NCBI GenBank assembly: GCA_017482385.1
Contig: JAFUNI010000016.1
Location: 351,100 to 415,099, forward strand
Source of the DNA: Oscillospiraceae bacterium
GTDB taxonomy: Bacteria; Bacillota; Clostridia; Oscillospirales; Oscillospiraceae
Reading direction: 5' to 3'
DNA: 64,000 nt
Position numbers and translations under genes: made by a program. The stretch's first letter is position 1. Every line of letters begins with the position of its first letter. The notes beneath the pieces are model-generated. The model saw only the letters and a list, made by a program, of their open reading frames with translations. It did not search any database and was not told where the DNA came from. Below are positions 38,844 through 55,964 of the stretch, in pieces.

Positions 38844-39299
38844 TTACATATCAATCGCAGGATTCATACAGTATACGTTCTTTTGATTTAGTTTTTCGCG
38901 GAGTAACTGCATCGCCTCACCAAACCGCTGGAAATGCACGACTTCCCGTTCCCGAAGGAACTTAATCACATTGTTTACATCCGGATCATCGGACAGCCGG
39001 AGAATGTTATCATAGGTCACACGTGCCTTTTGTTCGGCAGCCAGGTCTTCGGTCAAATCGGCAATGGGATCGCCCTTAACAGCAATACTTGCAGCATTCC
39101 AGGGGAAGCCGGATGCTGCAGTGGGGTAAACACCGGCAGTATGATCCACAAAATAAGGCGCAAAGGCGGAATCCTGGATTTGGGAATCCTTCATATTTCG
39201 TGTCAGCTGATGAACAATTGCGCCGATCATTTCCAAATGTCCCAATTCTTCCGTACCGATATCGGTAAGCAGACCTTTCAATTCGTCGAATGGTACAGG
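38844..39299 (-). pseudogene. cotJC: Spore coat protein CotJC, 5' end cut off by the element
   Basis: The remaining 151 or so codons match CotJC, a manganese-catalase-like coat protein: LLTDIGTEELGHLEMI, AVKGDPIADLTEDLAAEQKAR and FLREREVVHFQRF are intact, with the metal-binding Glu/His. Reading upstream, the frame goes VPFDELKGLLTD and then meets a stop at 39302-39300. About 50 N-terminal residues found in normal CotJC (about 190) are missing. The recombinase gene ends 11 bases beyond. cotJA and cotJB, usually just upstream, are also absent and should be at the far end of the element. Confidence 0.85.
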
Positions 39300-39312
39300 T
39301 TATAAACCAACA
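39290..39312. other. Probable attachment-site junction (chromosome/element)
   Basis: The similarity to CotJC stops here and the recombinase stop codon is at 39313-39315. The exact crossover bases cannot be read without the other end of the element or an empty site. Confidence 0.6.
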
Positions 39313-40842
39313 TCAGATATTCCATTTGATGCTGATTTCGTGTTCTGACAACCTGATTTTGTCTATGAGAGCGTCAGCTACAATCATTTTATCTTCCAAG
39401 GTAAGCTCTGTCCATTTGGAGATATAGTTGCTGATTTGAGCAACGTCGCATTTCTTTGTTGCTTGGGCAGATTGCAATTCATTTAGCTTAATTATGCATT
39501 GAGTGCGTTCGTCATCTAATGATGTTACTTTATCACTTAGGTACTTTATTAAAGCTCCGGATGCCTCCATTGCTTTTTGCGTTGCAATTTCAATATCCTG
39601 ATCCAAGCGTGCAATACGTGTTTTTAGCTGTGTTATTTCTGGGTCTATGCTGATTTCTTGCGGGGCAGATAATGACGAAAATTCTTGCAATTTGATTTTC
39701 ATTTGCTCGAATATCATAGCTTCCACAGCATCTGCTTTAAGACCATGAACACCGTCACATCTTTTTTCTGCCTGATTGGCCTCGGAACAGATCACATATC
39801 TAAATACGGCACCACTTGGTTTAACTGTCTTTTGAATGACTAAGGCATATCCGCATTTCGCACATTTTAGTTTTCCAGCTAACCACGTGTTTTTTATCTT
39901 ATTCTGCCGTACTGTCTCACCAGAGTGTTTTTGCTTTTTCCGGCACCTTAACCATATGTCTGATGGGACGAATCCCCGGTGAGGAGCTAAAACAAGGTGG
40001 TGTCCTTCCAAGCGGTAATTTGGGTGTGTTTTTCCTTTTTCAGAATATAGATAACAGCCGTTAGTCCCGATAAAATCCTCAGGTGGATTGTGGATAATGA
40101 CACCGTTTTCTTTAAAAAATTCGTAGACGGCGAGGTCTGCTTTTACATAAGCGGGATTATGTAGCATTCGTCCGATATGTGTTCGTGTCCATCGACCATC
40201 TTCCTTTTTGGGGTGTTTTATTCCAGCATCATTCAATGCCTTTACAACATCACCAAGGGATGCCATTGGATCCTGATAGACTGAGTACATAAATTGCAGA
40301 ATACTTGCTTCGTCCTCTTTGATTGTATATCGAGCTGTTTTTTTTCCCTCCAAGTAGAATGGTTCTGTTTTAAATCCCATGGGTATTTTGCCACCCATAA
40401 AGAATCCTTTCTTATTTCTCGAATGATAAGCATCAAACACACGCTGTTGTATAGTTTCCCGTTCAAGCTGTGCGAAAACAATACATATATTTAACATTGC
40501 TCTGCCCATTGGGGAAGAAGTATCAAATTTTTCGGTGCAAGAAACAAACTCAACATCGTATTTTTGAAATTCTTCCATTAAGTTTGCAAAATCAAGAATC
40601 GATCTGCTACATCTATCAAGTTTATAACATATGACCCTTTTGATTTCACCGTTTCTGATTGCGGTTAACATTTGTTGGAACTCAGGCCGATCTGTATTTT
40701 TGCCGCTATAACCTTTGTCTTTATATACTCGGTATGGACCACCTCTCGTTTCATATTTACAGAATTCGATTTGACTTTCTATGGATATACTATCAGCTTT
40801 ATCCACAGATTGTCTTGCGTAAATGGAATCTTCTTTAATCAT
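39313..40842 (-). CDS. Large serine recombinase (integrase)
   Basis: The 509-residue protein has the resolvase domain (catalytic Ser in YARQSVDKADS, about 12; YKLDRCSR; RAMLNICIVFAQLERE), the recombinase domain (KIPMGFKTE onward), a zinc ribbon (CAKCGYAL..CSEANQAEKRC, about 334-370) and a C-terminal coiled coil (about 395-465). This is the form of phage and ICE integrases. It lies at the cotJC junction, as integrases lie next to attL. The ATG follows GAAAGGAAAG. It reads in the same direction as cotJC. Excision normally needs a directionality factor; the neighbouring 57-residue protein is one candidate. Confidence 0.92.
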   Translation of the reverse strand: MIKEDSIYARQSVDKADSISIESQIEFCKYETRGGPYRVYKDKGYSGKNTDRPEFQQMLTAIRNGEIKRVICYKLDRCSRSILDFANLMEEFQKYDVEFVSCTEKFDTSSPMGRAMLNICIVFAQLERETIQQRVFDAYHSRNKKGFFMGGKIPMGFKTEPFYLEGKKTARYTIKEDEASILQFMYSVYQDPMASLGDVVKALNDAGIKHPKKEDGRWTRTHIGRMLHNPAYVKADLAVYEFFKENGVIIHNPPEDFIGTNGCYLYSEKGKTHPNYRLEGHHLVLAPHRGFVPSDIWLRCRKKQKHSGETVRQNKIKNTWLAGKLKCAKCGYALVIQKTVKPSGAVFRYVICSEANQAEKRCDGVHGLKADAVEAMIFEQMKIKLQEFSSLSAPQEISIDPEITQLKTRIARLDQDIEIATQKAMEASGALIKYLSDKVTSLDDERTQCIIKLNELQSAQATKKCDVAQISNYISKWTELTLEDKMIVADALIDKIRLSEHEISIKWNI

Positions 40843-40919: not shown

Positions 40920-41093
40920 TTATTGATATTTCGAAAAAACACTGTAAAGTGCTTGAGATATTTCTTTTGCTTTCGTTTCCCTTGCTTCCTCTGTTGGGAA
41001 TGAAGGGTTAATATGATGTATCTTTATCTCTTTCTCTGTAATAGTCCGAGGATTCTCTTGGAATTCGGGTTCTTTTACAGGAATTGAACTCAA
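40920..41093 (-). CDS. Small 57-residue protein beside the recombinase
   Basis: A TTG start at 41093 is preceded by a perfect AAGGAGGTG site, which decides this frame over an ATG at 41100 that is too close. The protein begins SSIPVKEPEFQENPRTITE, then IHHINPSFPTEEARETKAKE and ends in ISQALYSVFSKYQ. It is charged, probably helical, and of unknown family. Size and place next to a serine recombinase suggest a recombination directionality factor or an accessory protein, but no homology is known to me. Confidence 0.6.
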   Translation of the reverse strand: MSSIPVKEPEFQENPRTITEKEIKIHHINPSFPTEEARETKAKEISQALYSVFSKYQ

Positions 41094-41928: not shown

Positions 41929-42993
41929 ATGCCCGCCGAAACCCAAGAGAGAGTCAGAGTGGAGCCACTGGTCCTGGTGGATACAACTGACTTACCAAGA
42001 GATGACTGGCTGAATTACCGACGCCGAGGCATTGGCGGCAGTGATGTAGCGGCTATCCTTGGTGTATCCCCGTTCCGTACCGCAAGAGATATCTACTACG
42101 ATAAGTTAGGTGTTGTGGCAGTGGAGCCGGACGAAAGTAACTGGGTACCCCTGGAAGTAGGCAATCTCCTGGAGGATCTGGTGGCAAGGATTTTCCAAAA
42201 GAAAACAGGATACCGTATTTTCAAGATCAAGAAGATGTTCTATCATCCAAAGCATCAATTCATGTTGGCCGATGTGGATTACTTTGTAGAACTCCCGGAC
42301 GGTACGATTGCACTGCTGGAAATCAAGACAACCAATTACAACGCTAAGGATAATTGGTGGCTTGACGGCAGGGAGATTGTGCCAGTTTATTACGAGCTGC
42401 AAGGCAGACACTATATGGCTGTGATGGATTATGACCGTGTGTTCTTCTGCTGCCTTTACGGTAATACAGAGGACGAGGTTATCATCCGTGAGATCAAGCG
42501 TGATTTTGCTTATGAAGAGGAGCTGATCTATCTTGAACAGGCTTTCTGGCAGGACAATGTTCTCGTAAAGAATCCGCCTCCCTATGTGGAAGACGGAGAT
42601 CTTGTATTGGAAAGTGTTCGAATGTACAGTGAGCCGGCAGATCCGGATGCAGAAGCAGTTACACTGGACTTTACCCAAATGGCTATGCTTGCCCAGTATC
42701 TACAGATGCAACAGGAAAAATCCAGACTGGATGCGGATTCTAAAAAGCTGGAAACCGCTATGAAACGGCTCCGTGGCAGAATTGCATCGGAAATGGGGGC
42801 GTGCTGCAGGGCAGTTGGAAACTACAACGGTGTTGATTATACCGTCACCAACAACCCGGTACGAAAACCAATTCTAGCAAAGGACAATATGACGAGACTA
42901 CAGTTGAACCACCCGGAGATCTACGACGAGTATGTAACGACTTGTGAGTACCGGAAGTTCAGTGTACGATCAAAAACATCGGAGGCAGCATAA
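41929..42993 (+). CDS. YqaJ-type viral recombinase exonuclease
   Basis: The 354-residue protein has the YqaJ/lambda-exonuclease core: RRGIGGSDVAAILGVSPF (about 33-50), then an Asp in MLADVDYFVE (about 121) and the ExK motif LLEIKTTN (about 135-142), giving a PD-(D/E)XK nuclease. A helical C-terminal region follows. Such nucleases resect DNA ends for single-strand annealing. No RecT-type annealing partner is seen nearby. AGGGGG lies before the ATG. Confidence 0.85.
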   Translation: MPAETQERVRVEPLVLVDTTDLPRDDWLNYRRRGIGGSDVAAILGVSPFRTARDIYYDKLGVVAVEPDESNWVPLEVGNLLEDLVARIFQKKTGYRIFKIKKMFYHPKHQFMLADVDYFVELPDGTIALLEIKTTNYNAKDNWWLDGREIVPVYYELQGRHYMAVMDYDRVFFCCLYGNTEDEVIIREIKRDFAYEEELIYLEQAFWQDNVLVKNPPPYVEDGDLVLESVRMYSEPADPDAEAVTLDFTQMAMLAQYLQMQQEKSRLDADSKKLETAMKRLRGRIASEMGACCRAVGNYNGVDYTVTNNPVRKPILAKDNMTRLQLNHPEIYDEYVTTCEYRKFSVRSKTSEAA

Positions 42994-43024
42994 TACCGTC
43001 ACCGAAAGGAAGTGTAAAAAGAAT

Positions 43025-43078
43025 ATGGACATAGTTAGTGTCTTCTATGGTGTTTGCTCCGAGGGGGTACACCAATGA
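43025..43078 (+). CDS. Possible 17-residue leader peptide
   Basis: ATG at 43025 starts MDIVSVFYGVCSEGVHQ, whose stop overlaps the start of the helicase gene (ATGA at 43075). A GGAAGTG site lies upstream. The overlap suggests translational coupling. It is too short to be sure of. Confidence 0.35.
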   Translation: MDIVSVFYGVCSEGVHQ

Positions 43079-45345
43079 AAATTGAATGTACCTTTGACAC
43101 CAAAATCTTCCATAACCCTATGAATAAGTACTGCATTTTCCGTATGAAAACCGATGATCCTCTTATTCCAAAAGAGGCCCGTGGAGACCGGATTTACCCG
43201 GACCACTTGATTCGGTTTTCTGCTGTTGGATATGAGCTTCCAATGACAGATGTAGTTAAACTTGTCTTAGAGGGTGATTGGGAGAAAGGAAAGTACGGTC
43301 TGCAATTCGTGGTTGAGCAGTGGCATGAAATCGTCCCTGAAACGGAAAGCGGAGTGTACAACTATCTCAGCTCCGGACTGCTGAAAGGAATAGGCAGTAA
43401 AACTGCAGCGGAAATCGTTGCAAGGTTCGGCGTAAATTCCTTGAAAGTCATTGAGAACACACCGGAAAAGCTTCTTGAAATCCGGGGAATTACACCGGAA
43501 CGGCTGGAAGAAATCAAGTTGTCTTATGCGGAAAGCCGGGCGCTGCGGGATATTATGACTTTGCTCGCGCCTTTCAAGCTGACCCCAAAGGCAGCACTGC
43601 GTATCTATCAGCACCTTGGCCCAGCCAGTTTAGAGATTCTTGAGAAAAGTCCTTACTCCCTGTGCCGTATACCGGGATTTGGTTTTGCCCGTGTGGATTC
43701 CATTATGCAGAAGAACGATTGCGACCTTCACGACCCAATGCGAGTGCAGGGTGCTTTGTTCTGTGCGTTAGATAACGCCGGCAATGATGGTGGACATCTT
43801 TTTGTAGAGAAGACAAAGTTGGTCGATGGGGCAACAACCCTCTTGAACGGAAAAATTCCGGTGCCGGCGCTTCGTGTCAAAAAGGAAGAAATCGAAGAAG
43901 CATTGAACAGTATGGTGCTGGAAGGAACTGTGGTTTGTGCGAGAGACAACATCTATCATCCAAGGGTATTTGCCCAGGAGGATACAGTTGCGCAGATTCT
44001 CTCCAAGCTGCTGATTGAAAGACCGCCTTGTGAGTTTATTCAGCCGATCTTGGAAAAAGTCAAAGCGGATTTTCAAATCCGTTTGTCTGAGAAGCAGGAA
44101 GTGGCAGTCAACGAGGCGTTTCGCAATAATCTATCCATCATCACTGGTTCTCCCGGTACCGGTAAGACAACCGTATTAAAAACGATACTGGAGGTCTACC
44201 GCAGAATAAATCCCGAGGGCAAGATTCGTCTTATGGCACCTACCGGACGAGCCAGCCGCAATATGGCTGAAAGCACCGGTTTCAAAGATGCCAGAACGAT
44301 GCACAACGCCCTTGGCTTGATCAGCGAGGAGGACGACGGAGATACAAAGAATGGTAATGAACCGATAGATGCGGATCTGATTATCGTGGACGAGTTCTCT
44401 ATGGTGGATATGTGGCTGGCTTACAAGTTCTTTTCTCGTATCCGAAAAGGAACGAAGCTAGTACTTGTTGGCGACCCCGATCAGCTCCCCAGTGTCAGGC
44501 CCGGTAATGTCTTTAAGGAAATGATTGCTTGCGGAATCATCCCCGTAACGGTTTTGGATCAGATCTTCCGGCAATCGAAAGACAGCTTTATTGCCCATAA
44601 TGCAAAAATCATAAATAGGGGAGAAACAACACTCTACTATGGCGATGACTTCCAGTTTATCAATGCGAAAACCCAGGAAGAAACCGCAATGATCATTATG
44701 GAGCTTTACTGCCAGGAAGTGTATGAGCACGGCATTGAGCATGTGCAGATCCTCTCTCCATTCCGTCATAAGGGCGATGCATCCTCTGACCAGATGAATG
44801 TTACGCTCAGGGAGATCATCAATCCCTATACATCCGACGAGGATGAGGTTCGGGTTGGTGGTACCAGTTTTCGTGTTGGAGACCGGATCATGCAGAATAA
44901 GAACACAGCGCAGGTGTCCAATGGTGACCTCGGTTTTATCCGTGGTGTGGACAACAGCACTGAAGTGGGTGTTGATGTAGACTTTGGTGAAGAACGGAAA
45001 CTGAAATACAGGGCAGAAGATATGTCGAAGCTGGAACTTGCCTATGCGACTACCATCCATAAGGCGATGGGTTCTGAGTACGATATCGTTCTGATGCCCC
45101 TTTTGAAGTCCCACAACATAATGCTGAGCAGGAATTTACTCTACACCGGTATTACCCGTGCAAAAAAACGTGTGATTCTTGTAGGACAAAAACCGGCGTT
45201 GTTTATGGCGATCCATCGTAATGACATTACCAAGCGAAATACCCTATTGGGTGAACGCATTTGCCTTTACTATAAGGCGATGGCTAAGAGCGCGGGAATC
45301 CCGCTACCCGTAGTCTTGGAAGAAAAACTAAAAAAAGCTAGTTAA
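43075..45345 (+). CDS. RecD2-like SF1B DNA helicase
   Basis: The 756-residue protein has tandem helix-hairpin-helix segments (GLLKGIGSKTAAEIVARFG at about 102-120 and IRGITPERLEEI), Walker A GSPGTGKTT (about 356-364), Walker B IIVDEFSMVD, GDPDQLPSV, and the late helicase motif YATTIHKAMGSEYD. These match RecD2/TraA-type 5'-3' helicases. It lies after the YqaJ nuclease, with which it could process DNA ends. The ATG at 43075 follows GAGGGGGT. Confidence 0.88.
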   Translation: MKIECTFDTKIFHNPMNKYCIFRMKTDDPLIPKEARGDRIYPDHLIRFSAVGYELPMTDVVKLVLEGDWEKGKYGLQFVVEQWHEIVPETESGVYNYLSSGLLKGIGSKTAAEIVARFGVNSLKVIENTPEKLLEIRGITPERLEEIKLSYAESRALRDIMTLLAPFKLTPKAALRIYQHLGPASLEILEKSPYSLCRIPGFGFARVDSIMQKNDCDLHDPMRVQGALFCALDNAGNDGGHLFVEKTKLVDGATTLLNGKIPVPALRVKKEEIEEALNSMVLEGTVVCARDNIYHPRVFAQEDTVAQILSKLLIERPPCEFIQPILEKVKADFQIRLSEKQEVAVNEAFRNNLSIITGSPGTGKTTVLKTILEVYRRINPEGKIRLMAPTGRASRNMAESTGFKDARTMHNALGLISEEDDGDTKNGNEPIDADLIIVDEFSMVDMWLAYKFFSRIRKGTKLVLVGDPDQLPSVRPGNVFKEMIACGIIPVTVLDQIFRQSKDSFIAHNAKIINRGETTLYYGDDFQFINAKTQEETAMIIMELYCQEVYEHGIEHVQILSPFRHKGDASSDQMNVTLREIINPYTSDEDEVRVGGTSFRVGDRIMQNKNTAQVSNGDLGFIRGVDNSTEVGVDVDFGEERKLKYRAEDMSKLELAYATTIHKAMGSEYDIVLMPLLKSHNIMLSRNLLYTGITRAKKRVILVGQKPALFMAIHRNDITKRNTLLGERICLYYKAMAKSAGIPLPVVLEEKLKKAS

Positions 45346-45408
45346 AGGGAGTGCAGTTGCAGAAAATCGCAATGCATTCCTTATTTATTTTGAAAGGAGC
45401 AAAATGTT

Positions 45409-46650
45409 ATGAGTAAAAGCGATAGTGTCCCTATGATGTACGAGGTGTTTCCCGCAGTGGCAGCCTTAAACCAGGTGCAGGGTTTTAATCCCCTGAAAAT
45501 GTTGCGCCGAATGGTATCGCCCAAAACGGGTGAAGAGGTTCTGCGACTGGATCTGCAGTACAAGAAGCTGTGGTTCCGGTTACGGCATCCTGAAGGCCGA
45601 ATCCGTGTGAATCCTCTGCGTATCACGGAGCAGATTGCCATTTACGAGGCACAGGTCTATCTGCACAAGGAAGATCCTGCCCCCGTATGCAGTTTTACCT
45701 CCAGCATCAGTAAGGAAGAAGCACCGGACGGAAAGTATATCCAGGCAGCACAGGAAGATGCCATTGACAATGCGCTCTCTGATGCAGGCTTTGGCATTCA
45801 GCTTTCCGATGTTTCCACGCCGGCAAGTATGCGTCACTATGGCAGTGAGATTCCCGTATCCCAGCTTAATGGAAATACCGCTGTACCGACAGGGCAGGTA
45901 AAGCCTACACAGCCTGTTAGTAAGCCTGTCGTTCAGGCGCCTTCGGCACCTGAACAGTCTGCGACTGCTATTCAGCAGTCGCCCGCACCCAAAGTTGCGG
46001 AGAGACCTGCACAGGTTACACAGAATGTAGCTCCTGTACAGCCCACTCCGGCACCGAAAGCGGTACAGCCTACTGCCCCTGTTCAGACAGCACCGGTAAA
46101 GAATGTTGTACAGCCTACTGCACCTGCACCTACGGAAAAAGTACCTGCTGTTCAGCAGGCTCCCGTACAGACGGTTACACAGCAGACTGCAAATACCGTA
46201 CCGGTTACTCAGACTAATGCTGTTGCACAGCCTAAGCCTGCTGCTCCTGTTCAGGAACAGCCTAAGCCTGCCCAGGAAGTTCATACGGCGAACGCCGCAT
46301 TGGAAATCCTGCGGGGCGGCAATCCTGCGCCGACGGCAGCGCCTGTGGCACAGCCTGCAGTTACTGCTGCTGTTGCGGCTGAAGTGGACGATAAGGACCT
46401 GCCTTTCACCTTTGGCCCTGCTTATAACAACACTATGACTCCCGAGGAGATTGCTGCTGTTATGACGCTGGATCAGGCAAGGGCTATTGTAGTTGATACC
46501 GGTGTCTGTAAGGGTATGACGATGGGTGAGGTTGCGGAAAAGCGCCCCCTCAGCCTGAAGTTCTATATCTTTGGCGGCTATCGGGGAGACAATAACATCC
46601 TCAAGGCCGCAGCGAAGGTAGTTTATGAGCAGTTGCAGAATGCGGCTTAA
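45409..46650 (+). CDS. Proline/glutamine-rich linker protein with ExoX-C-like end
   Basis: The 413-residue protein has an N-terminal folded domain (about 1-105), a long Pro/Gln/Ala/Val linker (about 160-310) built from loose repeats such as VQPTAPVQTAP and VVQPTAPAPTE, and a C-terminal domain (ARAIVVDTGVCKGMTMGEVA, then PLSLKFYIFGGY) that recalls the small ExoX C-terminal-like module. The repeats are visible in DNA too (GTACAGCCTACTGC twice near 46068 and 46109). It lies between helicase and primase, so a scaffold or single-strand DNA protein is plausible. AAAGGAG precedes the ATG. Confidence 0.65.
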   Translation: MSKSDSVPMMYEVFPAVAALNQVQGFNPLKMLRRMVSPKTGEEVLRLDLQYKKLWFRLRHPEGRIRVNPLRITEQIAIYEAQVYLHKEDPAPVCSFTSSISKEEAPDGKYIQAAQEDAIDNALSDAGFGIQLSDVSTPASMRHYGSEIPVSQLNGNTAVPTGQVKPTQPVSKPVVQAPSAPEQSATAIQQSPAPKVAERPAQVTQNVAPVQPTPAPKAVQPTAPVQTAPVKNVVQPTAPAPTEKVPAVQQAPVQTVTQQTANTVPVTQTNAVAQPKPAAPVQEQPKPAQEVHTANAALEILRGGNPAPTAAPVAQPAVTAAVAAEVDDKDLPFTFGPAYNNTMTPEEIAAVMTLDQARAIVVDTGVCKGMTMGEVAEKRPLSLKFYIFGGYRGDNNILKAAAKVVYEQLQNAA

Positions 46651-46697
46651 TGAAGTAAGCAGCTCCATATCACATTAACAGGAAGGGGGACCGGCAG

Positions 46698-48449
46698 ATG
46701 GCCTCATATTCGTATGATTTCCCGTTTGGGATCATGGATGTGGTGGAACTGCTGCATTTGAATGTACGGCGGAGACTGCCGGACAGTGTATATGTTGACT
46801 GTCCGTTTTGCGGAGATCGTCGTGGAAAAATGAATGTCAACAAGGTTAAGGATAATTGGCGCTGTAATTACTGCGGTGAGTACGGCGGTATGTTGAATCT
46901 GTATTGCAGGATATTCGGTGTATCCAGCTCGGATGCCTACCGTGAGATCTGTGATGCTCTTCACATTGACGGGTATGAATCCGGAAGCAGACCTAGCGAC
47001 CGCGGCATTGCCGGGGGCTCCACACGGAGCCCTTCGGCAGCCAAGGAAAAGCATGAGGGTTTACCCCAGTCAGAACGGGCCAGCAGGCAGGAAATCCACC
47101 AGACATATTCTGTTTTGCTGGATATGCTGACGCTTCTGCCTGTACACAAGGCCCATTTACTTTCGGATAAAAGGGGCCTTTCGGAGGAACAGATTGCAAA
47201 ATACAGGTTCAAAAGCACACCACCGCCATTTCTCTGTAAGAGGATTACAGAAAGTTTGATTGCCAAGGGTTGTACCGTACAGGGTGTCCCGGGGTTTTAT
47301 CAGGAGAGTAGCGGCAGATGGAATTTGAACTTCACTAAACGTCTGTCCGGTATTCTGCTGCCCGTGGTAGGCTTTGATGGAATGATCCAGGGAATGCAGA
47401 TTCTCTTGGATGTGCCGTTTAAAGATAAGAATGATCCACCGGAAAAACCTGGATCCAAATATCTTTGGTTTGCATCGACGACCAAGAATATGGGTATCAC
47501 CTCTGGAAGTCCGGTGCTGTTTGTCGGTAATCCTTGTGCCCGCACAGTCTATGTAACGGAAGGTATCTTAAAAGGATATATTGCCCATACAGTAATGAAC
47601 CGAACCTTTGCTTCTACGGCCGGCGCCAATAACCTGAAGAATCTGGAGGAATTATTCAAATTCCTTGCCCAGAACGGTACTGAGCAGATCATAGAGGCAC
47701 AGGATATGGACAAGTACTCCAATGCTATGACGGAGAAAGGTGCTTCTACGATCTACCTGATGGCTCGCAAGTATGGTATGGAATGTAGGCGGCTAACTTG
47801 GAATCCCAATTATAAGGGAATCGATGATTGGCAGCTTGCTCTTCGCCGCCGTGATAGACAGCTTCGTGAGGAAAAGCAAATGACATTTAAGGAAAAATAT
47901 CTTCTCGGCTTATGCCACTTTGATAAACTCTACGACTGTATTGAGGATTGGCATAAGAAGAAAGAAGACGGTATTGGCCTTGCCCGGTATTTGGGACTGA
48001 CCGACATTGAATATGGTACGCTCTGCTCCAAAAGCGAGGATGTGTTCAAGCAGCTTTTGGACGCGCAGCGCCGTAATCAAAGATTCCGGATCTATCAGCT
48101 GAATTTCAGTTCGGAGCAGCGGACGATTCCTTTTGCCTTCCAAGGATTTGATGGGCTTAAAAAGGCGGGTTTTGACCAACCACCGGCCGCGTTCTATAAA
48201 ATGATCTGGGATTATGAAATGACTTGCCCTACCTCCTGGCAGGAAGAAGAAATGCTCCGTTATATAGGTAAGCATTATTCTGATCGGATGCCGGAAGATT
48301 ATATGGGAAGACCGTTGGCACCGTCTGATGTAGTGGAGCTGTACGACAATGAGACCCGAAGATATTACTATGTAGATACTCAGGGGTTCATATCAGTGCG
48401 GTTCTCGCCGTTTTTGGCTAAGCAGACGGACGCTTTAGATGAAGAGTGA
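46698..48449 (+). CDS. CHC2 zinc-finger primase-like protein
   Basis: The 583-residue protein has an N-terminal zinc finger (CPFCGDRRGKMNVN..CNYCGE, Cys 35, 38, 56, 59). A Toprim-like DUF3854 region follows (VYVTEGILKGYIAHTV, then AQDMDKYSN) with the Glu and DxD needed for metal. The last 180 residues are of unknown fold. Primase-type proteins of this form are typical of ICEs and phages in gut Bacillota. GGAAGGGGG precedes the ATG. Confidence 0.82.
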   Translation: MASYSYDFPFGIMDVVELLHLNVRRRLPDSVYVDCPFCGDRRGKMNVNKVKDNWRCNYCGEYGGMLNLYCRIFGVSSSDAYREICDALHIDGYESGSRPSDRGIAGGSTRSPSAAKEKHEGLPQSERASRQEIHQTYSVLLDMLTLLPVHKAHLLSDKRGLSEEQIAKYRFKSTPPPFLCKRITESLIAKGCTVQGVPGFYQESSGRWNLNFTKRLSGILLPVVGFDGMIQGMQILLDVPFKDKNDPPEKPGSKYLWFASTTKNMGITSGSPVLFVGNPCARTVYVTEGILKGYIAHTVMNRTFASTAGANNLKNLEELFKFLAQNGTEQIIEAQDMDKYSNAMTEKGASTIYLMARKYGMECRRLTWNPNYKGIDDWQLALRRRDRQLREEKQMTFKEKYLLGLCHFDKLYDCIEDWHKKKEDGIGLARYLGLTDIEYGTLCSKSEDVFKQLLDAQRRNQRFRIYQLNFSSEQRTIPFAFQGFDGLKKAGFDQPPAAFYKMIWDYEMTCPTSWQEEEMLRYIGKHYSDRMPEDYMGRPLAPSDVVELYDNETRRYYYVDTQGFISVRFSPFLAKQTDALDEE

Positions 48450-48462
48450 TAGGAGGAAAGCT

Positions 48463-48669
48463 GTGAAACTCAGCATTATGTACCCGGATAACCGAGTGGA
48501 AGAAATCTATGTAATGCGTGTATTTACCTTTAACGCTATCAATGCCGGTCCTTGCCTCTATTATGAAACAAGTTCCGATATAAGCGGAAAGGGAAAATCG
48601 GTTCGTATGTCGGAAATCAAGTGCTGGGAAGTGAACGCAGTCGTTGTTGGCAGTAATATGCCGCTGTGA
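48463..48669 (+). CDS. Small protein of unknown function
   Basis: The 68-residue protein begins MKLSIMYPDNRVEEIYVMRV and has a beta-rich pattern. GTG at 48463 is chosen because TAGGAGG lies just upstream; an earlier ATG at 48439 would overlap the primase gene and lacks a site. It sits in the operon between primase and PcfK-like genes. Confidence 0.6.
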   Translation: MKLSIMYPDNRVEEIYVMRVFTFNAINAGPCLYYETSSDISGKGKSVRMSEIKCWEVNAVVVGSNMPL

Positions 48670-48678
48670 GGTGTACTT

Positions 48679-48924
48679 ATGATGGATTGTGATAAGGAAA
48701 CTCAAATCACTGCGTTGTATGACCAGTGTTGTGAACTGCCGGCAGAGGTGCGGTATAAGCCTGAGAATTTGACGATTACAGTGCTTGTGCCGCCTCCGTG
48801 GGATGCGGTTGCAGAGCGTCAAGCACTCAGCACACAAAATAAGATCAAGGAATGGTCAGAACAGTACCCCAATGTGGTATGCTACTGCTTTGACAGCTTC
48901 AGTACATTGCTGTATGTGCTGTAA
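48679..48924 (+). CDS. Small protein of unknown function
   Basis: The 81-residue protein has four Cys spread through its length and no membrane segment. GAGGTG lies before two adjacent ATG codons (48679 and 48682); either may start. A hairpin terminator follows. No family recognised. Confidence 0.6.
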   Translation: MMDCDKETQITALYDQCCELPAEVRYKPENLTITVLVPPPWDAVAERQALSTQNKIKEWSEQYPNVVCYCFDSFSTLLYVL

Positions 48925-48939
48925 GTCTACAGTAAACAA

Positions 48940-48978
48940 GGGTATGCGTTGCAATACACGCATACCCTATATTTTTTA
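48940..48978 (+). terminator. Terminator before the PcfK-like gene
   Basis: A 10-bp stem GGGTATGCGT/ACGCATACCC with an 8-base loop is followed by TATATTTTTT. Confidence 0.75.
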
Positions 48979-48994
48979 TAAAGGAGTTAATGAT

Positions 48995-49906
48995 ATGGAT
49001 AGTTATTCTGACTTTAATGCCCAGCAAGATGTAGGATTTACCGAGATGCCTTTTGCGGAAGTACCTTTTGAAGATGTACCTTTTGATGAAACTGTACCCG
49101 CCGAAGCAATACCTGCTCCTGCAGATGTTTCTACTGTTATACAGACGTGTGCGCTTGTTGCTCCTGTTCAGGAGCCGCCTGCCAATCAGTCTGTTGCCAC
49201 AGTAGTACAAAACACGGCAAGTACAGCTTCTTCTGCTCAGCCTGATGCAAAAGATACAAGCGATGAAGACGAAGAAAAAAAGCGTGCGGAACATGAAGCA
49301 AAAGAAGCGGAACGAAAAGCCGCTTTTGAGGCTCGACAGGCAGCCAAGAAAAAGGCTTATGACGAGCAACTGGAAAAGGCAAACAATATGTCTGATGAAG
49401 AAGTCGTGGAGGCTGCGGTTGTTCGTGCCGGTGAAGATACGGAGAAGATCACCCGCAAAAATATGAAGGACTGTGTTGCTGAGCATATTCAGACGCTCTG
49501 CTTATCCGATCCTGCATTTGCACGACTGACGATGCATCCGCGTAAGAAAATGGTGCATTGCTTCCAGTACATTACCCGTAAAGCCTGGGAGTACATTCAA
49601 GACGAATTAAAGGCAGATGGAATCCAGCCTGGGCAAGGCGCTGCCGGTTACGGTGCTGCTGTGCCGGAGGGACTTTGTTATCAATGGGCAGAGGATTACT
49701 TCCGAGATCCTACCGCAAAGGAGGACGAGGAGGAAGAGGAAACCTTTACTCCAAAGCCCTATCCGGGTAAGCCTGCTCCTAAGCCAAAGGCCAAGAAACC
49801 TGCGGAGAAGAAAAAGACCGAGAAAAAGCCTCCTGAAAAGAAAGAGGAGGAAATGAAACCTGCCAATGATGATCAGCTCTCATTCGGCCAAATGGCATTG
49901 ATGTAA
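48995..49906 (+). CDS. PcfK-like / AcrIIA9-family protein
   Basis: The 303-residue protein has an acidic, repeat-like start (MPFAEVPFEDVPFDETVPAE), a charged coiled coil (about 85-130), a conserved core (KITRKNMKDCVAEHIQTLCL, then HPRKKMVHCFQYITRKAWEY, then GLCYQWAEDYFRDP) and a Lys/Pro/Glu-rich tail. The core matches my memory of the PcfK-like family (PF14058) of conjugative elements, to which the Cas9 inhibitor AcrIIA9 belongs. That it blocks Cas9 is not shown by the sequence. AAAGGAG precedes ATG 48995. Confidence 0.72.
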   Translation: MDSYSDFNAQQDVGFTEMPFAEVPFEDVPFDETVPAEAIPAPADVSTVIQTCALVAPVQEPPANQSVATVVQNTASTASSAQPDAKDTSDEDEEKKRAEHEAKEAERKAAFEARQAAKKKAYDEQLEKANNMSDEEVVEAAVVRAGEDTEKITRKNMKDCVAEHIQTLCLSDPAFARLTMHPRKKMVHCFQYITRKAWEYIQDELKADGIQPGQGAAGYGAAVPEGLCYQWAEDYFRDPTAKEDEEEEETFTPKPYPGKPAPKPKAKKPAEKKKTEKKPPEKKEEEMKPANDDQLSFGQMALM

Positions 49907-49926
49907 AGAATTGAGGTGAATTTCGA

Positions 49927-50478
49927 ATGTTTGCCTATAAAGGTTTTGGAAAAGGTCTTATCTGCCGTGGGTATCAATTCGTTATGGGGCTTAACTGTAC
50001 GGAAAAAGCAAACTGCGCGCAGAATGGATTTCACTGTGCAGAAGATCCGCTGGATTGTCTAAGCTACTACTCCAATATGGATACTTCTGAGTATTACATT
50101 GTAAATGCCGGGGGAGACATCCACGAGGATGGCAGCGACACTAAGATTTCCTGTACGGAGCTTACGATTCTGAAGCAATTGACCCGTAAGGAATTCTTCC
50201 TGCACGCACTTGCATTTATGGCAGATCATCCTAAAAGGGAATGGAGCAGTCATGTCACAAAAGACAAAGGCACTGTACAGCGATATTGCAAGTATGTTGT
50301 TGTGCGTGGCATTGATCCTGTTGCCCGGGGTCCGATTGGAAGTATTCTCGCCTTTGCAAAAGAGGATGTTTTCGGCAACATTGTCCAGGTTGCCCTTGCA
50401 GAAGTGGACGGTGAAAAGGTAAAAGCCGATACCTGGTATAGTGTTGACCTTTTGGAACGGGAGGTCGATCTTCTGTGA
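49927..50478 (+). CDS. DUF7666-like protein
   Basis: The 183-residue protein starts AYKGFGKGLICRGYQF, has CAQNGFHCAEDPLDCLSYYS (about 36-55) and later GGDIHEDGSDTKISCTELTI. This 'CRGFQ...GFHACE.PLD....Y' layout matches the DUF7666 family found on mobile elements. Function unknown. It overlaps the PcfJ gene start by 4 bases, so the two are coupled. GAGGTG precedes the ATG. Confidence 0.65.
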   Translation: MFAYKGFGKGLICRGYQFVMGLNCTEKANCAQNGFHCAEDPLDCLSYYSNMDTSEYYIVNAGGDIHEDGSDTKISCTELTILKQLTRKEFFLHALAFMADHPKREWSSHVTKDKGTVQRYCKYVVVRGIDPVARGPIGSILAFAKEDVFGNIVQVALAEVDGEKVKADTWYSVDLLEREVDLL

Positions 50479-52670
50479 AAAAAGCGCAATTGATAAAACT
50501 CCCTGTTCTAAAAGCAACCGCCCATATGATGAAGCTGGCCGCAGAGGATGAACTGAAATACAGTAGGGTAAAGATTGGGAGCTACAATTCCAACGAAAAG
50601 GGATATAAATACGGCCTGTACCTGCGTAGCAAGGTGTTTGATAACATTCTGAAGGTTTCTATCTTCTATCCGGAGCATATGCGCTCCGGAGGAAGACTGC
50701 CGGTATTTGAGGTGTATATTGACAGACAGAACCACGATTTCATCACTTACAACCACCTAAAGAAAAAGTGGATGACCAGCAAGCTCAATATGATTGAATG
50801 GCCCAAATATGTGTTCTATTCCGAAGGAAAGTGGATCAGCCCCAGAGACGGAAAGTTGATTCAGTCGTACCTTGGTGTTGAGCACATTGGTTACAGGGGA
50901 GTTTTGGATTTTCAAATGCAGGTGCGTTTGGAAGAGCTAAAACGCCGTCATAAGAAAGAGACGGATCCCTGGGATCTGGCAATGGAGCAAACTCCGGATC
51001 TTCCGAAAGACTGGGATAAATGGGTAAGCAAGGTTGGCATTCCGGAGAATTTTATTTTCTACAAGTATGTGAGAGGTGGAGCAACGACCGGATACTGTAC
51101 TTACTGCGAAAAGGAAGTACCTATTCGCAACCCAAAGCATAATCAGCTAGGAACTTGTCCGGTCTGCCGGCACAAGATCCAGTATAAATCGGAGGGCAGA
51201 GCCGGTACGGTCATTACGCCTACAGTGAACATTTACTTAATTCAACGGTGTGAAGATGGTTTTATGGTTCGTAATTTCCACGGTCACAAAAGATTTGAAA
51301 AGTATGGGTATCGAAGGCCTGAAGTGTCAAAATGGGAGATAAGGCGAGCTATCTGCAACAAAAATGCCATTCCGTTATCTGCCTACTACTGGGGCGACTA
51401 TAAGCATTCGGAAATCCGTTGGATTGCTACCGGATTCTGCCACGCAAACTGGTGGGGAGGTACGGAAGGCAGAGTATATGGGAAGACTCTTCCAGACCTT
51501 GCAAAGCACGAATTAAAGAAAACCGGTCTGGTTGAATTCATAATGCAAAGAAAGGTCGTTGACCCCGAAAAGTATCTTGCTGTTCTACGCTATATCCCTC
51601 AGATGGAGCAGATTGTAAAGGCAGATTTTCCCCGTTTGGTTAGCGAATGTCTGAAGGACTATTACAATTTCGCTGAGGTTTTTAAGTCTAAGACCGCAGG
51701 CAGTCTCACAAAACTTTTGGGACTGGATAACCAGCAGTTAAAACGACTCAGAGCCAACAACGGCGGCAGAAGCTTCATTCGCTGGCTGCGGAATGAAAAG
51801 GTTATTGGAAAGGAAATACCGGATAACATCATTTCCTGGCTTTGTGAAAACAGTATCGTGATAGACGATATTCGATTCATTCTTGACCGTATGAGTGTTG
51901 TGCAGATATATAACTATGTCTGCAGGCAATCTGCGGAATTGAAGATGAAGCCCAAAGATGTGATTGGTACCTGGGCCGACTACTTATCAATGGCTGCGCG
52001 TCTGAAGATGGACACCAATGATGCCATCATCTACCGTGTGCGCCTGCTTAGAAAGCGTCACGATGAATTGGTAGAGCGTTGCAAATTGCAGGATCTTGAA
52101 ATCCGTGCCGGCGAAGTGCTTCTCAAATATCCTCATATTGAGGATATTTACGACTCTATTCGGAATCTGTATGCCTATCAAGATGAAGAATACTCCGTTC
52201 TTATTCCTTCCAAGTTGGAAGATATCATCAAAGAGGGCGAACAACTTCATCACTGTGTCGGCAGCAGTGAACGGTATTGGGATCGAATTGAGCGCCGGGA
52301 AAGCTATGTTTTGTTTTTGCGCCATACATCCAATCCGGACAAGCCTTACTACACCCTCGAAGTTGAACCCGATGGTACAGTAAGACAGAAGCGGACAATG
52401 TATGATCGACAGGAAGCAGACATTGAACAAGCAAAGAGATTTCTTCGCGAGTGGCAGAAGATTGTATCAACAAGGCTAACTGCCACAGAACACAAACTCG
52501 CAGTAGTCAGTAAAGAGCTGCGTAAGCAGGAATTTGCTGAACTAAAGCGGGATAAGGTCATAATTCATACTGGTGATTTCTATGGCAGATCACTCTTGGA
52601 TCTGCTGAAAGAAGACCTTATGGAAAACACGAATGTTGCTGCTGAGCCGGTATTGGCTGCTGCGGCGTAG
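50475..52670 (+). CDS. pcfJ: PcfJ domain protein
   Basis: The 731-residue protein has a zinc ribbon (CTYCEKEVPI..CPVCRHKI, about 212-236) and the PcfJ signature near the C terminus: EGEQLHHCVGSSERYWDRI, then YVLFLRHTSNP and YYTLEVEPDGTV. PcfJ is named after the conjugative plasmid pCF10 but is widespread on ICEs; its biochemical role is unknown. The GTG at 50475 is the only upstream start that couples to the previous gene. Confidence 0.85.
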   Translation: MKKAQLIKLPVLKATAHMMKLAAEDELKYSRVKIGSYNSNEKGYKYGLYLRSKVFDNILKVSIFYPEHMRSGGRLPVFEVYIDRQNHDFITYNHLKKKWMTSKLNMIEWPKYVFYSEGKWISPRDGKLIQSYLGVEHIGYRGVLDFQMQVRLEELKRRHKKETDPWDLAMEQTPDLPKDWDKWVSKVGIPENFIFYKYVRGGATTGYCTYCEKEVPIRNPKHNQLGTCPVCRHKIQYKSEGRAGTVITPTVNIYLIQRCEDGFMVRNFHGHKRFEKYGYRRPEVSKWEIRRAICNKNAIPLSAYYWGDYKHSEIRWIATGFCHANWWGGTEGRVYGKTLPDLAKHELKKTGLVEFIMQRKVVDPEKYLAVLRYIPQMEQIVKADFPRLVSECLKDYYNFAEVFKSKTAGSLTKLLGLDNQQLKRLRANNGGRSFIRWLRNEKVIGKEIPDNIISWLCENSIVIDDIRFILDRMSVVQIYNYVCRQSAELKMKPKDVIGTWADYLSMAARLKMDTNDAIIYRVRLLRKRHDELVERCKLQDLEIRAGEVLLKYPHIEDIYDSIRNLYAYQDEEYSVLIPSKLEDIIKEGEQLHHCVGSSERYWDRIERRESYVLFLRHTSNPDKPYYTLEVEPDGTVRQKRTMYDRQEADIEQAKRFLREWQKIVSTRLTATEHKLAVVSKELRKQEFAELKRDKVIIHTGDFYGRSLLDLLKEDLMENTNVAAEPVLAAAA

Positions 52671-52676
52671 GAAAAA

Positions 52677-52709
52677 GCAGGGTGTCCTTTCGGGCACCCT
52701 GCCAGTTTT
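52677..52709 (+). terminator. Hairpin terminator after pcfJ
   Basis: An 11-bp stem GCAGGGTGTCC/GGGCACCCTGC (one G-T pair) with a TTTC loop is followed by a short T tract. Read-through to the ligase gene is likely partial. Confidence 0.6.
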
Positions 52710-52722
52710 ATAGGAGGAACTT

Positions 52723-53046
52723 ATGGTAAAGAATTTGAGCCAGTTAAAGCGCACCCTGCAGACCGGCGCCCAGTTCCGTGTGATTGATCATGGCAGACCG
52801 GAATGTGTGGGTGAGGAAAGGGAAGTTACCTATGCCAATACCCAAGGCTTTTACAGCATCGTCCCCAACGATCCCAACTGCAGAACATCCCTCGCCAACA
52901 ATGGACGTGGATCTCATATGTGGTGGAGCTCTGCCTCTTACTGGGAATTTAAGGACGGTGTATGTACTCAGTATCTCAGCGATACAAAACGCACCAAGGA
53001 ACATATGGTAATTTCCTTGAAAGTCGTCGAAAAGGAGGCAGCATAA
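52723..53046 (+). CDS. Protein of unknown function
   Basis: The 107-residue soluble protein has aromatic-rich parts (HMWWSSASYWEFKDG at about 65-79) and no motif I know. AGGAGG precedes the ATG. Its stop overlaps the ligase ATG (TAATG), so it is co-translated with the ligase and may serve in the same process. Confidence 0.65.
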   Translation: MVKNLSQLKRTLQTGAQFRVIDHGRPECVGEEREVTYANTQGFYSIVPNDPNCRTSLANNGRGSHMWWSSASYWEFKDGVCTQYLSDTKRTKEHMVISLKVVEKEAA

Positions 53047-55052
53047 TGGCACAGACCGATAAGGAAAGACTCTTCGAGCTAATTAAGCTGATGAATCGCT
53101 ACCGGCACGAGTATTACAATCTGAACGCTCCATCTGTGTCAGATGCAGTATATGACCGTCTGTACGATGAACTGGTTTCTCTTCAGACTAAGACGAACAT
53201 CTATATGGCGAACTCTCCGACCATGGCACCGGGGTATCCACCTGTGAGCCAACTGGAGAAGGTCACGCATTCGATTCCTTTGTTGTCATTGGACAAGGTG
53301 AAGGATGTAAACGAACTGATTACTTTCCAGAAACAGAAGCAGCTTATGCTAATGCTGAAACTGGACGGTCTGACATTGAAGCTGACCTACGAAGGTGGAC
53401 AGCTAATTGAGGCATCTACCCGTGGAGATGGTGATGTAGGCGAAATCGTGACCCATAATGTCTGTAGTATCAGCGGTATTCCTATTCTTGTCAATCATAT
53501 GGGACGCCTTGTGGTTACCGGAGAGGTATTTATCCGGCCCAGTGACTTTGAGGAATTGAAGGATACGCTGGTAGACAGCAAGGGCGAATCATATAAAAAT
53601 GCCCGGAATCTTGCGGCTGGATCTGCAAGGTTGTTTGAGCCGGAAGAATGCAAAAACCGGCGCTTGCATTTCCAGGCATTTAATGTACTGGAAGGTTTCG
53701 GAGATATTCCATTTAAGTCCAAGAAGCTGGGGATGCTTCCTGCGCTGGGCTTTGAAGTGTGTAAGTTCTTTGTGACTAACCGACCGCTGAACGCACAGCA
53801 AATGGACATTGGTATCAAGCAGCTTCAGGATTATGCTAAACAGAACGACATTCCCATCGATGGCGTTGTGGTCACCTTTAATGATATTGCGTATTCAAAA
53901 TCCTGTGGGCGTACAGGACATCACTACAAGGACGGTCTTGCGTTCAAGTTTGAGGACGATCTGCATCAGACAAGGCTTCGTTCTATTGAATGGACACCTT
54001 CACGGTTTGGTATTTGTGCGCCTGTGGCTGTGATGGATCCCGTTATTATTGACGGTTGTGAAGTCACCCACGCCAGTCTGCACAATGTGTCCTTTATCGA
54101 GAACAAAGAGCTTGCTATCGGCTGTAGGCTGCTTATTAGCAAACGGAATATGATTATTCCGCAGGTGGAAGAAAATATGGACCGGGGTAATTACGATCCT
54201 TCACAGGTTATTCCCGCTGTCTGTCCCTGCTGCAAGCGGCCAACGCAGATACGGGAAAGTGAGCCTGACAAGGATGGCAAGGTAGTAAAAGTCCTGTACT
54301 GCGACAACGAGGCCTGCGACAGCCGGAAGCTCAAAAAGTTTGTACATTTCGTAAGCAAGAAGGCCATGAACATTGAGGGCCTTGCAGAAGGCACTCTGGA
54401 GAAGCTGATTGGGTTCGGATTCCTGCATTCTGTAACGGATATCTACAGGCTGGACAACTACCAGAATCAAATCATTGGGTTGGACGGTTTTGGTGAGAAG
54501 TCTTGGCAGAAACTTTGGGATGCCATTCAGAGGAGCAGGAACACAACTTTTGAGCGTTTCTTGATCTCGATGGATATTCCTATGATCGGCAACGATGCCA
54601 GTAAGACCCTTGCTACGGCTTTTGGCAGCGATCTTGGGGCCTTTATGGATGCTGTGTGCTGCCAGTATGACTTTTCTCAGTTGCCGAACTTTGGAGAGAC
54701 TCTTCATAGCAACATCTACGACTGGTTTGCCAGCGAGGAAAATTTCTGCCTGTGGTATGAACTGCTGGATATGATCACCATTCAGGAACCTGTTGCTACG
54801 GCACCAGTGGCCGCAGGAAGTCCTTTCACCAATATGACGATTGTGGTCACGGGTAAAGTAGAACCCTACACACGGGACGAGGTACACGCTATGATTGAAT
54901 CTCTTGGTGCCAAGCCTGGTAGCTCTGTCAGCAGCAAGACCGATTATCTGATCTGTGGCGATAAAGCCGGCAGTAAATTAGATAAGGCACGTTCGCTTGG
55001 GGTTAAGGTGATTACGCCTACCGAATTCTTCTCTATGGCAAACGCGGCTTAA
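53046..55052 (+). CDS. ligA: NAD-dependent DNA ligase
   Basis: The 668-residue ligase has all LigA parts in order: the NAD-binding Ia start (YRHEYYNLNAPSVSDAVYD, about 17-35), the catalytic Lys in LKLDG (about 104), the OB fold, a four-Cys zinc finger (CPCC..CDNEACDS), helix-hairpin-helix motifs and a C-terminal BRCT domain (about 590-665). It looks complete and active. A bacterial chromosome already needs one ligA, so this is an extra, element-borne copy. The ATG at 53046 overlaps the upstream stop. Confidence 0.92.
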   Translation: MAQTDKERLFELIKLMNRYRHEYYNLNAPSVSDAVYDRLYDELVSLQTKTNIYMANSPTMAPGYPPVSQLEKVTHSIPLLSLDKVKDVNELITFQKQKQLMLMLKLDGLTLKLTYEGGQLIEASTRGDGDVGEIVTHNVCSISGIPILVNHMGRLVVTGEVFIRPSDFEELKDTLVDSKGESYKNARNLAAGSARLFEPEECKNRRLHFQAFNVLEGFGDIPFKSKKLGMLPALGFEVCKFFVTNRPLNAQQMDIGIKQLQDYAKQNDIPIDGVVVTFNDIAYSKSCGRTGHHYKDGLAFKFEDDLHQTRLRSIEWTPSRFGICAPVAVMDPVIIDGCEVTHASLHNVSFIENKELAIGCRLLISKRNMIIPQVEENMDRGNYDPSQVIPAVCPCCKRPTQIRESEPDKDGKVVKVLYCDNEACDSRKLKKFVHFVSKKAMNIEGLAEGTLEKLIGFGFLHSVTDIYRLDNYQNQIIGLDGFGEKSWQKLWDAIQRSRNTTFERFLISMDIPMIGNDASKTLATAFGSDLGAFMDAVCCQYDFSQLPNFGETLHSNIYDWFASEENFCLWYELLDMITIQEPVATAPVAAGSPFTNMTIVVTGKVEPYTRDEVHAMIESLGAKPGSSVSSKTDYLICGDKAGSKLDKARSLGVKVITPTEFFSMANAA

Positions 55053-55059
55053 TGAAAGT

Positions 55060-55088
55060 GGGAGAGCAGTGATTAGCCTTGCTCTCCC
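55060..55088 (+). terminator. Hairpin after ligA
   Basis: A 9-bp stem GGGAGAGCA/TGCTCTCCC with an 11-base loop ends the ligase gene; the T tract is poor. Confidence 0.5.
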
Positions 55089-55099
55089 ATATATAAAAG

Positions 55100-55128
55100 T
55101 TGACTTTCGTATATCCGTTCAATATAAT
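55100..55128 (+). promoter_or_regulatory. Promoter of the SprT-like gene
   Basis: TTGACT (55100-55105) and TATAAT (55123-55128) have 17-base spacing, a near-consensus promoter. Confidence 0.85.
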
Positions 55129-55152
55129 TTGTTGTAGAAATGGAGAAAGCCT

Positions 55153-55650
55153 ATGAAGAATTTAATGAAGCTGGTAGGGGAGAGCCAAAGGGATCTTGCA
55201 TCTCTGAATATCCGCACCGGCAATGTCAGAAACTGGTCTGTAAACACAAGAGCAAAAGCCAGATGGGGATACTGTGTTAAGGTGTCTAAGGGATTATTTG
55301 ATATTCAAATTGCAACAGCTTTACTGCAGGACGATGTTGACGACCAAGCCGTAAAGGATACGATTGTCCATGAATTGCTGCACACCATCCCTGGCTGCTT
55401 TAAGCACACCGGAAAATGGAAACAGTACGCAAATACGATAAATCGTTTACTTCCTCAGTACAAGATAAAGCGAGGATCTTCCTATGAAGAGAAAGGCTTG
55501 GAAGATCTCCGTCCAAAGCCTCAATGTCGGTATATTTTAAAGTGCCTGCGTTGCGGTTCGGAAATTGGACGTCAACGAATGAGTGCAGCTGTAGAACACC
55601 CGGAGCACTATCGTTGTAAATGTGGTGGGCGATTGACCCGAATCAAATGA
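55153..55650 (+). CDS. SprT-like zinc metalloprotease
   Basis: The 165-residue protein has the SprT motif HELLHTIPGCFKHTGKW (about 75-91, HExxH with a third ligand His) and a C-terminal zinc ribbon (CLRCG..CKCGG). SprT-like proteases such as eukaryotic Spartan cut proteins crosslinked to DNA. Next to a ligase and helicase this could be a DNA-repair or replication aid for the element. It has its own strong promoter. Confidence 0.82.
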   Translation: MKNLMKLVGESQRDLASLNIRTGNVRNWSVNTRAKARWGYCVKVSKGLFDIQIATALLQDDVDDQAVKDTIVHELLHTIPGCFKHTGKWKQYANTINRLLPQYKIKRGSSYEEKGLEDLRPKPQCRYILKCLRCGSEIGRQRMSAAVEHPEHYRCKCGGRLTRIK

Positions 55651-55665
55651 GAATGGGGGATTGCG

Positions 55666-55863: not shown

Positions 55864-55890
55864 TTTTGTAGCTATGCTTACTTGATCGAA

Positions 55891-55925: not shown

Positions 55926-55931
55926 GCAAAT

Positions 55932-55959: not shown

Positions 55960-55964
55960 ATATT

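Follow-up and report, generated by a model that had tools for sequence, protein, structure and literature searches.

The predicted sporulation gene cotJC is used as an insertion target by several lineages of large serine recombinase (LSR) at several sites along the gene, and this multi-site, multi-lineage use is our main new finding. We analyzed the gene in a 64,000-nucleotide stretch of DNA from an Oscillospiraceae gut bacterium (the window), which is the end of contig C7 (bases 351100–415099 of 415099) in a draft genome of 35 contigs that is 95% complete, and in related genomes. That cotJC is split by a recombinase-bearing element in the window is confirmed. By hand tally, about one in four (89/325) of the sampled genomes bearing its family, PF05067, have cotJC cut into pieces at a small number of fixed positions. 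The assignment of cotJC to sporulation follows from homology and gene context.

Split cotJC in the window

An earlier note on this DNA had claimed that cotJC lacks its first 50 or so codons where an LSR begins. This holds: similarity to cotJC ends at codon ~51, the window keeps codons 51–198, and the LSR comes next (Table 1). The LSR lies directly upstream of the 3′ part in the same orientation, with its stop codon ending at 39313, 22 bases past the cotJC part. In the Pfam scan of the window, the 3′ part matches the CotJC/Mn-catalase family PF05067 with an E value of 7.7e-35 over profile positions 56–198. A genome-wide PF05067 search (E ≤ 0.001) returned two complementary pieces, the window piece (profile 54–198) and a 5′ piece (profile 1–50) at C16:254313–254462, 2.46 kb before the end of contig C16. 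The N-terminal codons that the note had expected at the far end of the element are found there, behind cotJA/JB. The note had said that a full second cotJC, if no excised circle were ever seen either, would refute its idea; the same search of the 95%-complete genome returned no complete or additional copy of cotJC.

On C16, the 5′ piece is preceded by an open reading frame (ORF) that encodes both a CotJA and a CotJB domain; farther upstream lie an amidase and a RadA-type ORF. The CotJA and CotJB domains are fused in one open frame of 133 amino acids (L003:16909–17310, from G000:C16). Both cotJC parts are 86–90% identical to the uncut cotJC of three congeners (loci L084, L085 and L086). The order RadA–amidase–cotJAB–cotJC is common to C16, L085 and L074, the cotJC of L074 itself being cut at another site. 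In L084 the amidase lies upstream as on C16 and RadA on the opposite side of cotJC; in L086 the matches are limited to cotJAB and cotJC.

The two junctions, in the window and on C16, share an identical core of 8 nucleotides (nt), TTCGACGA. The note had pointed to a short repeat at 39290–39312, and the core, at 39283–39290, adjoins that stretch. Joined across TTCGACGA, the two parts read RYSMPFDE-LKGLLTDIG and give a full-length cotJC with an unbroken frame; precise excision would rejoin the gene behind cotJA/JB, as had been proposed. Both of our core-finding methods allow in-frame registers alone, so the frame is no evidence by itself, and the shared core is the evidence. At the reciprocal joint the sequence is TATAACCTGTACC-A-TTCGACGA-GCCAAAC-GGTACAAGTTATA, which forms an imperfect inverted repeat flanking the core. 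An inverted repeat at the joint of the circle is as would be expected of the attP site of an LSR, and attP-like inverted repeats were recognized by eye at many other cotJC elements.

Split cotJC across the order

We searched PF05067 in 394 genomes of the order, and 325 match. The 122 genomes with a weak best hit were queried a second time, and the other 203 stand at their first-pass result. Of the 122, 114 show pieces whose boundaries fall on or close to a small common set of positions, with two or more complementary pieces in 88 genomes and one piece in 26. The remaining eight comprise an intact gene (G018), a frameshifted one (G123), four likely other ferritin-like proteins (G390, G303, G203 and G274) and two ambiguous cases (G016 and G388). 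With the window genome, split cotJC thus amounts to 89 genomes; the piece counts are a hand tally of rows. Recombinases were checked in the fetched loci, which represent part of the 89, and there LSRs lie beside the cut gene.

In 38 of these genomes two or more pieces share a contig, and in 35 of the 38 they are ordered and on the same strand. The pieces of G108 lie out of order about 675 kb apart, and those of G188 and of G380 are on opposite strands. The gene is in four pieces in G231 and in three in G035, G029, G330, G361 and G178, all collinear.

As a control, the SpoIVA ATPase domain (PF09547) matches in 351 of the 394 genomes, nearly always as one full hit. It is weak or broken-looking in four (G260, G048, G088 and G164; about 1%), and two full hits occur in G162 and G163. 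SpoIVA is present in 87 of the 88 other genomes with split cotJC (the exception is G263), so that the capacity to sporulate seems to have been kept in these lineages.

When 216 genomes were sampled across the class, 147 matched, with pieces at the same boundaries in at least 23 "same class" genomes; this figure reflects piece boundaries alone, and some of these pieces could be short paralogues. Two contigs of one genome (L252, G270:C30; L253, G270:C26) both end exactly at the site-B core described below, without element sequence. These ends are suggestive of mixed split and whole forms or of an assembly branch; being ambiguous, they were left unused.

Cut sites within the gene

Site codons were read from a hidden Markov model (HMM) of 19 intact genes (20 intact-control loci were fetched, and L100 was left out). 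The cuts fall at site A (codons 29–33), B (61–65), B2 (about 66–69), C (133–136) and, in the window, W (51–53). Site D lies at about codons 173–175 in Flavonifractor sp. An10, and pieces elsewhere end at 164–180; being too close to the gene end for the Pfam survey, it was detected via the LSR search. In An10, pieces covering codons 60–178 and 171–198 flank the site-D element, the first 60 codons lying outside the stretch examined. A further site-D junction is present in Pseudoflavonifractor phocaeensis An858 (L158), and the cotJC of G325 is cut at site C.

A shared core at the in-frame register was found at most junctions, with at least 5 nt at 30 of 37 and at least 7 nt at 20 of 37; runs of 5 nt are sometimes expected by chance. 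Automatic core finding gave a wrong register or none at 7 of 37 junctions (L065, L075, L076, L077, L078, L104/L105 and L117/L116); a second pass was wrong for L109, and L104 is ambiguous between the passes.

Among the 191 eight-codon windows of the intact genes, ranked by conservation, the sites ranked 12 (A), 36 (B), 7 (C), 2 (D) and 146 (W). The ranked windows were placed on the sites by hand, and a D window three codons farther on ranks 100. In an alignment with the Lactobacillus plantarum catalase 1jku, sites A, B/B2, C and D adjoin metal-ligand motifs. We take the nearby ligands to be Glu35 (A), Glu66 and His69 (B/B2), Glu148 (C) and His181 (D).

Site D of An10 has a core, TTCGGCGA, that is similar to the window core TTCGACGA. 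We considered whether the window insertion reflects retargeting from site D. A 55-nt site-D attB matches the window site with a score of just 22/55, a value equalled at 599 of 63946 positions along the window. The likeness of the window site to site D is confined to the core.

Recombinase lineages and elements

All 26 elements contained whole in one locus carry an open LSR frame, usually at an end of the element; for two of them, at L082 (site C) and L083, coverage of the model is partial. A tree of 82 LSRs was built by a quick method, and some long branches are flagged. All 14 site-A enzymes form one clade. Of the 15 site-B enzymes, 14 form another together with L109, L075 and L070, which carry the label "none" only because they lie away from the cotJC piece or overlap it. 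The fifteenth, L105 (near codon 63), stands apart on a deep branch of its own, paired with the B2 enzyme of L073. The eleven site-C enzymes group in a clade that also includes L116, a C element whose label is "none" because of its distance. The 15 site-D enzymes and W fall in one clade, which we take to be TndX-like, together with 16 LSRs without cotJC beside them in the stretch examined; the window LSR is placed near the site-D recombinases. Site labels change 14 times on the tree, compared with 48.7 times in shuffles. The tree thus indicates that at least four or five lineages reached cotJC, most with their own site.

The whole elements measure 3.1 to 16.7 kb, and larger ones extend beyond these loci. 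Elements of 3–5 kb persist with open LSR frames, and the cargo of small elements beside the LSR includes a nucleoside phosphorylase, an ABC transporter and a GH25/LysM protein.

The tree also bears on the view that elements turn over rapidly and most insertions are young, in which case intact halves and LSRs would be uninformative on function. The site-C LSRs of the congeners G312 and G330 lie far apart in the tree, and their cotJC pieces are close (a nonsynonymous divergence, dN, of 0.023), which suggests that elements were replaced and not inherited vertically. At site D, near-identical LSRs also occur in different genera (L128, L129 and L130). A high frequency of splitting at one short gene, against about 1% for SpoIVA, would still need a reason for its tolerance, and we consider this view unlikely. 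Vertical inheritance, considered as proof of element age, is unsupported, as the LSR tree suggests turnover.

Conservation of the pieces

No stop codons were found in the trimmed pieces of 73 split genes (6 codons were trimmed at cut ends); this count is biased, since the pieces were drawn from open frames, just a single piece entered the count for 38 of the 73 genes, and G272 is outside the set. The median pairwise ratio of nonsynonymous to synonymous substitution (dN/dS, for pairs with dS < 1.3) was 0.24 between split genes (147 pairs), 0.24 between split and intact genes (161 pairs) and 0.18 between intact genes (35 pairs), the pairs being non-independent and dS near saturation. The pieces are under constraint, perhaps slightly relaxed.

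These values have to be set against the possibility that cotJC is a safe harbour, conserved yet expendable, in which elements with suited recombinases settle, the gene stays broken and excision serves only for transfer, independently of development. This would be compatible with the young insertions considered above. Loss of cotJC is reported to leave Bacillus subtilis spores without apparent defect (cited in passages of PMC12122855). Sites A–D lie in conserved codons, as elements needing a common target would choose, the window element is of conjugative type, and rearranged or decayed copies exist (G108, G188, G380 and G272). A broken gene should decay, yet the split genes show no stops in the biased count and are under purifying selection. 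The split state is also common in genomes that keep SpoIVA, and several elements too small for transfer genes retain an open LSR frame. We consider the safe-harbour explanation rather unlikely, though a serious one.

Proposed excision during sporulation

The reading that we prefer, and hold to be probably correct as a whole, is insertion into cotJC followed by regulated excision in the mother cell that restores the gene. The element would have inserted into cotJC by means of its own LSR, the window showing one end of an element of integrative-conjugative type. In growing cells cotJC would stay split. At sporulation, recombination between attL and attR in the mother cell, carried out across TTCGACGA by the LSR together with a directionality factor, would release the element as a circle and rebuild cotJC in frame behind cotJA/JB. 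As the mother cell dies, the germ line would keep the element. That excision happens and that it is specific to sporulation we infer by analogy with sigK, spsM, spoVFB, gerE and yabG; cotJC function would be the reason why the halves persist. The common split state in lineages that keep SpoIVA, the open and conserved halves and the working-looking LSRs even in tiny elements are together most easily explained by a gene that is put together again whenever it is required. Developmental excision is a plausible reading, with more behind it than one case alone could give, and it is unproved.

Several observations weigh against it. The exact 27-nt attP pattern had no matches in viral contigs, and no excised circle or rejoined gene was seen. 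The pieces are non-collinear in three of 38 one-contig genomes (G108, G188 and G380), and G272 has stops in both pieces, so that a few copies seem past restoring. Split genes have a dN/dS slightly above the intact-gene value, and the conservation may in part be older than the insertions. C16 and C7 were joined by inference, the window genome being a draft. As B. subtilis spores are reported to show no apparent defect when cotJC is lost (cited in passages of PMC12122855), restoration of the gene may be unneeded.

A search with a strict sigma-E/sigma-K consensus also gave no hits in 65 regions upstream of cotJC-linked LSRs (some loci were counted twice). The cotJ operon, used as a positive control for the same pattern, is not enriched (2 of 56 observed versus 2.0 expected), so the promoter test is void. 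A loose −10 motif was found in 24 of 61 regions at sites A–D versus 9.8 expected, and in 25 of 56 cotJ controls versus 19.5; these expectations come from mononucleotide shuffles alone, and we left the result out of the evidence.

Taken further, cotJC in Clostridia could be a standing "split gene", reached by several distant LSR lineages, each at a site within it and most beside a metal-ligand motif. The mother cell would then assemble two, three or even four segments by several excisions per sporulation, and conjugative elements and small cargo cassettes would find in the gene a protected docking place. This wider picture is tentative; we find it quite possible and stop just short of calling it probable.

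Relation to known systems

The best NCBIfam relative of the window LSR is the fdxN element excision recombinase XisF (E value 8.6e-36). Its score of 123.8 is far under the family cut-off of 375, and membership in the XisF family was rejected. The XisF-excised fdxN element of heterocyst-forming cyanobacteria is a case of developmental excision in a terminal cell.

The window case shares several features with known intervening elements: the gene is split with both parts retained and no other intact copy found, a short core allows in-frame restoration, and a recombinase lies at the junction. PMC4191935, PMC5025042 and PMC10747680 describe such elements in sporulation genes, namely skin (sigK), SP-beta (spsM), vfbin (spoVFB) and yin (yabG). 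In these systems, as here, a sporulation gene is interrupted at a short shared core by an element with a serine recombinase, and precise excision restores the frame. They differ from the present case in that the target here is cotJC, the window element is of conjugation type rather than phage type, insertions occur in many genera and at several sites per gene, and excision from cotJC is inferred. The gin element in gerE of Bacillus cereus ATCC10987 is similar in being a non-phage LSR element in a small sporulation gene with a short end overlap; according to passages of PMC5595907, gin measures 28.6 kb and has three LSRs, whereas cotJC elements start at 3.1 kb and several may occupy one gene.

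The Clostridioides difficile prophage phi027 is likewise a mobile element integrated beside a CotJC-like Mn-catalase gene. The relevant passages of PMC11222575 and PMC12122855 place that gene adjacent to, or downstream of, attR and describe neither a split gene nor its reconstitution. Convergence of many LSR families on single conserved genes is known from the target-gene clusters of Durrant et al. (PMC10083194). The targets named in its passages are a magnesium chelatase and a prolyl isomerase, and its main text contains neither "cotJ" nor "catalase". Among the listed titles and abstract openings of open-licence PubMed Central papers on the topic, there is no report of a split cotJC, and phi027 is the nearest case in print.

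Developmental gene rearrangement in spore formers has so far been known from a handful of single elements. If excision from cotJC is developmental, sporulation in these bacteria would commonly involve programmed DNA assembly. Without such control, cotJC would be a strong hot spot for mobile elements whose split state is easily overlooked in annotation. Either way, the loci provide a large set of site-specific recombinases, each paired with its attachment sites, as well as species suited to tests of multi-step excision.

The window element

The features of the window are collected in Table 1. The element genes on the C7 side were identified by Pfam on ten chosen ORFs, one of which had no match. 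The C16 side carries a protein with a weak helix-turn-helix match; a small membrane protein that matches no Pfam family lies where the contig ends. The end of C16 is an exact 141-nt overlap with the end of C11 (38.5 kb), on which a type IV coupling protein was found by Pfam and VirB4- and VirB6-like ORFs by eye alone. C11 also shares an exact 141-nt end with the start of C20 (12.7 kb; thiamine-like ORFs by eye), and in an attempt to close the contigs C11/C20 and C12 remained unjoined. With C11 and C12 counted as parts of it, the element would measure at least about 70.6 kb.

Table 1. Coordinates of the features discussed, numbered from the first base of the window.
Feature	Position	Strand	Remarks
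cotJC 3′ part, codons 51–198 of 198	38844..39290	−	Open up to junction; stop codon 38844–38846; Pfam PF05067; own HMM codons 49–197
Crossover core TTCGACGA (attR)	39283..39290	−	Partner attL core G000:C16:254463–254470; longest shared run at in-frame register
Right arm of attP-like inverted repeat, TATAACCTGTACC	39292..39304	−	Left arm GGTACAAGTTATA on C16; joint written out in text
LSR, 509 amino acids	39313..40842	−	Pfam Resolvase (1.1e-35), Recombinase, Zn_ribbon_recom
ORF of 57 amino acids, TTG start and Shine-Dalgarno	40920..41093	−	Upstream of LSR; tblastn matches near related LSRs
Element genes	41929..63915	+	YqaJ-type recombinase, RecD2 helicase, YodL/CHC2 protein, PcfK, PcfJ, NAD-dependent DNA ligase, SprT-like, sigma-70 region 4/alpha-CTD protein, flotillin/Band 7; Pfam
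Right-hand C7 end inside element	58389..64000	.	Reassembled on C12, 99.98% over 5612 bp; C12 continues 5090 bp

By its gene content, the element looks like an integrative-conjugative type rather than a prophage. It has a site-specific recombinase with attL and attR, and type IV secretion components (a VirD4-type coupling protein and the VirB4- and VirB6-like ORFs) lie on C11, which the 141-nt overlap appears to tie to the element. The two halves of cotJC could instead come from misassembly or rearrangement and not be the ends of one insert: they lie on different contigs, the C7 end recurs inside C12, and the halves are non-collinear in three other genomes. Such an origin would leave unexplained the shared 8-nt core with its matching attP arms, the type IV secretion genes reached from C16 through C11 and the mobile-element genes on the C7 side, as well as the collinear pieces in 35 of the 38 other one-contig genomes, and we regard it as very improbable.

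A close relative of the element exists, as a contig of a viral collection carries the window LSR at 100% identity and 9.1 kb of the element at 97%. Upstream of the LSR, the 57-amino-acid ORF is matched by tblastn at the equivalent position next to related LSRs (L237, L125/L263, L065/L127, L155 and L236; weakly in L144). It is a candidate accessory factor or recombination directionality factor, and no directionality factor was identified with confidence.

A widespread LSR that is 47–48% identical to the window LSR occurs in Lachnospiraceae, Faecalibacterium and others (most of L161–L234; L137–L140 and L142), and no cotJC piece was found in the loci carrying it. Between the 57-amino-acid ORF and the LSR, a GC-rich hairpin followed by a T-rich run was seen by eye on the minus strand (40858–40903). 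Read by eye, GAAAGAACCGCCAG is present at 40862–40875, upstream of the LSR, and at L003 17510–17523, at the left end of the element on C16. The two copies are inverted relative to the element and may represent a binding site. The extension of C12 (L280, 5.1 kb) includes ABC-transporter-like ORFs. Elsewhere in the genome, two related stretches (L275, G000:C35; L277, G000:C4) are 82% identical over 13 kb, and each carries a type IV coupling protein.

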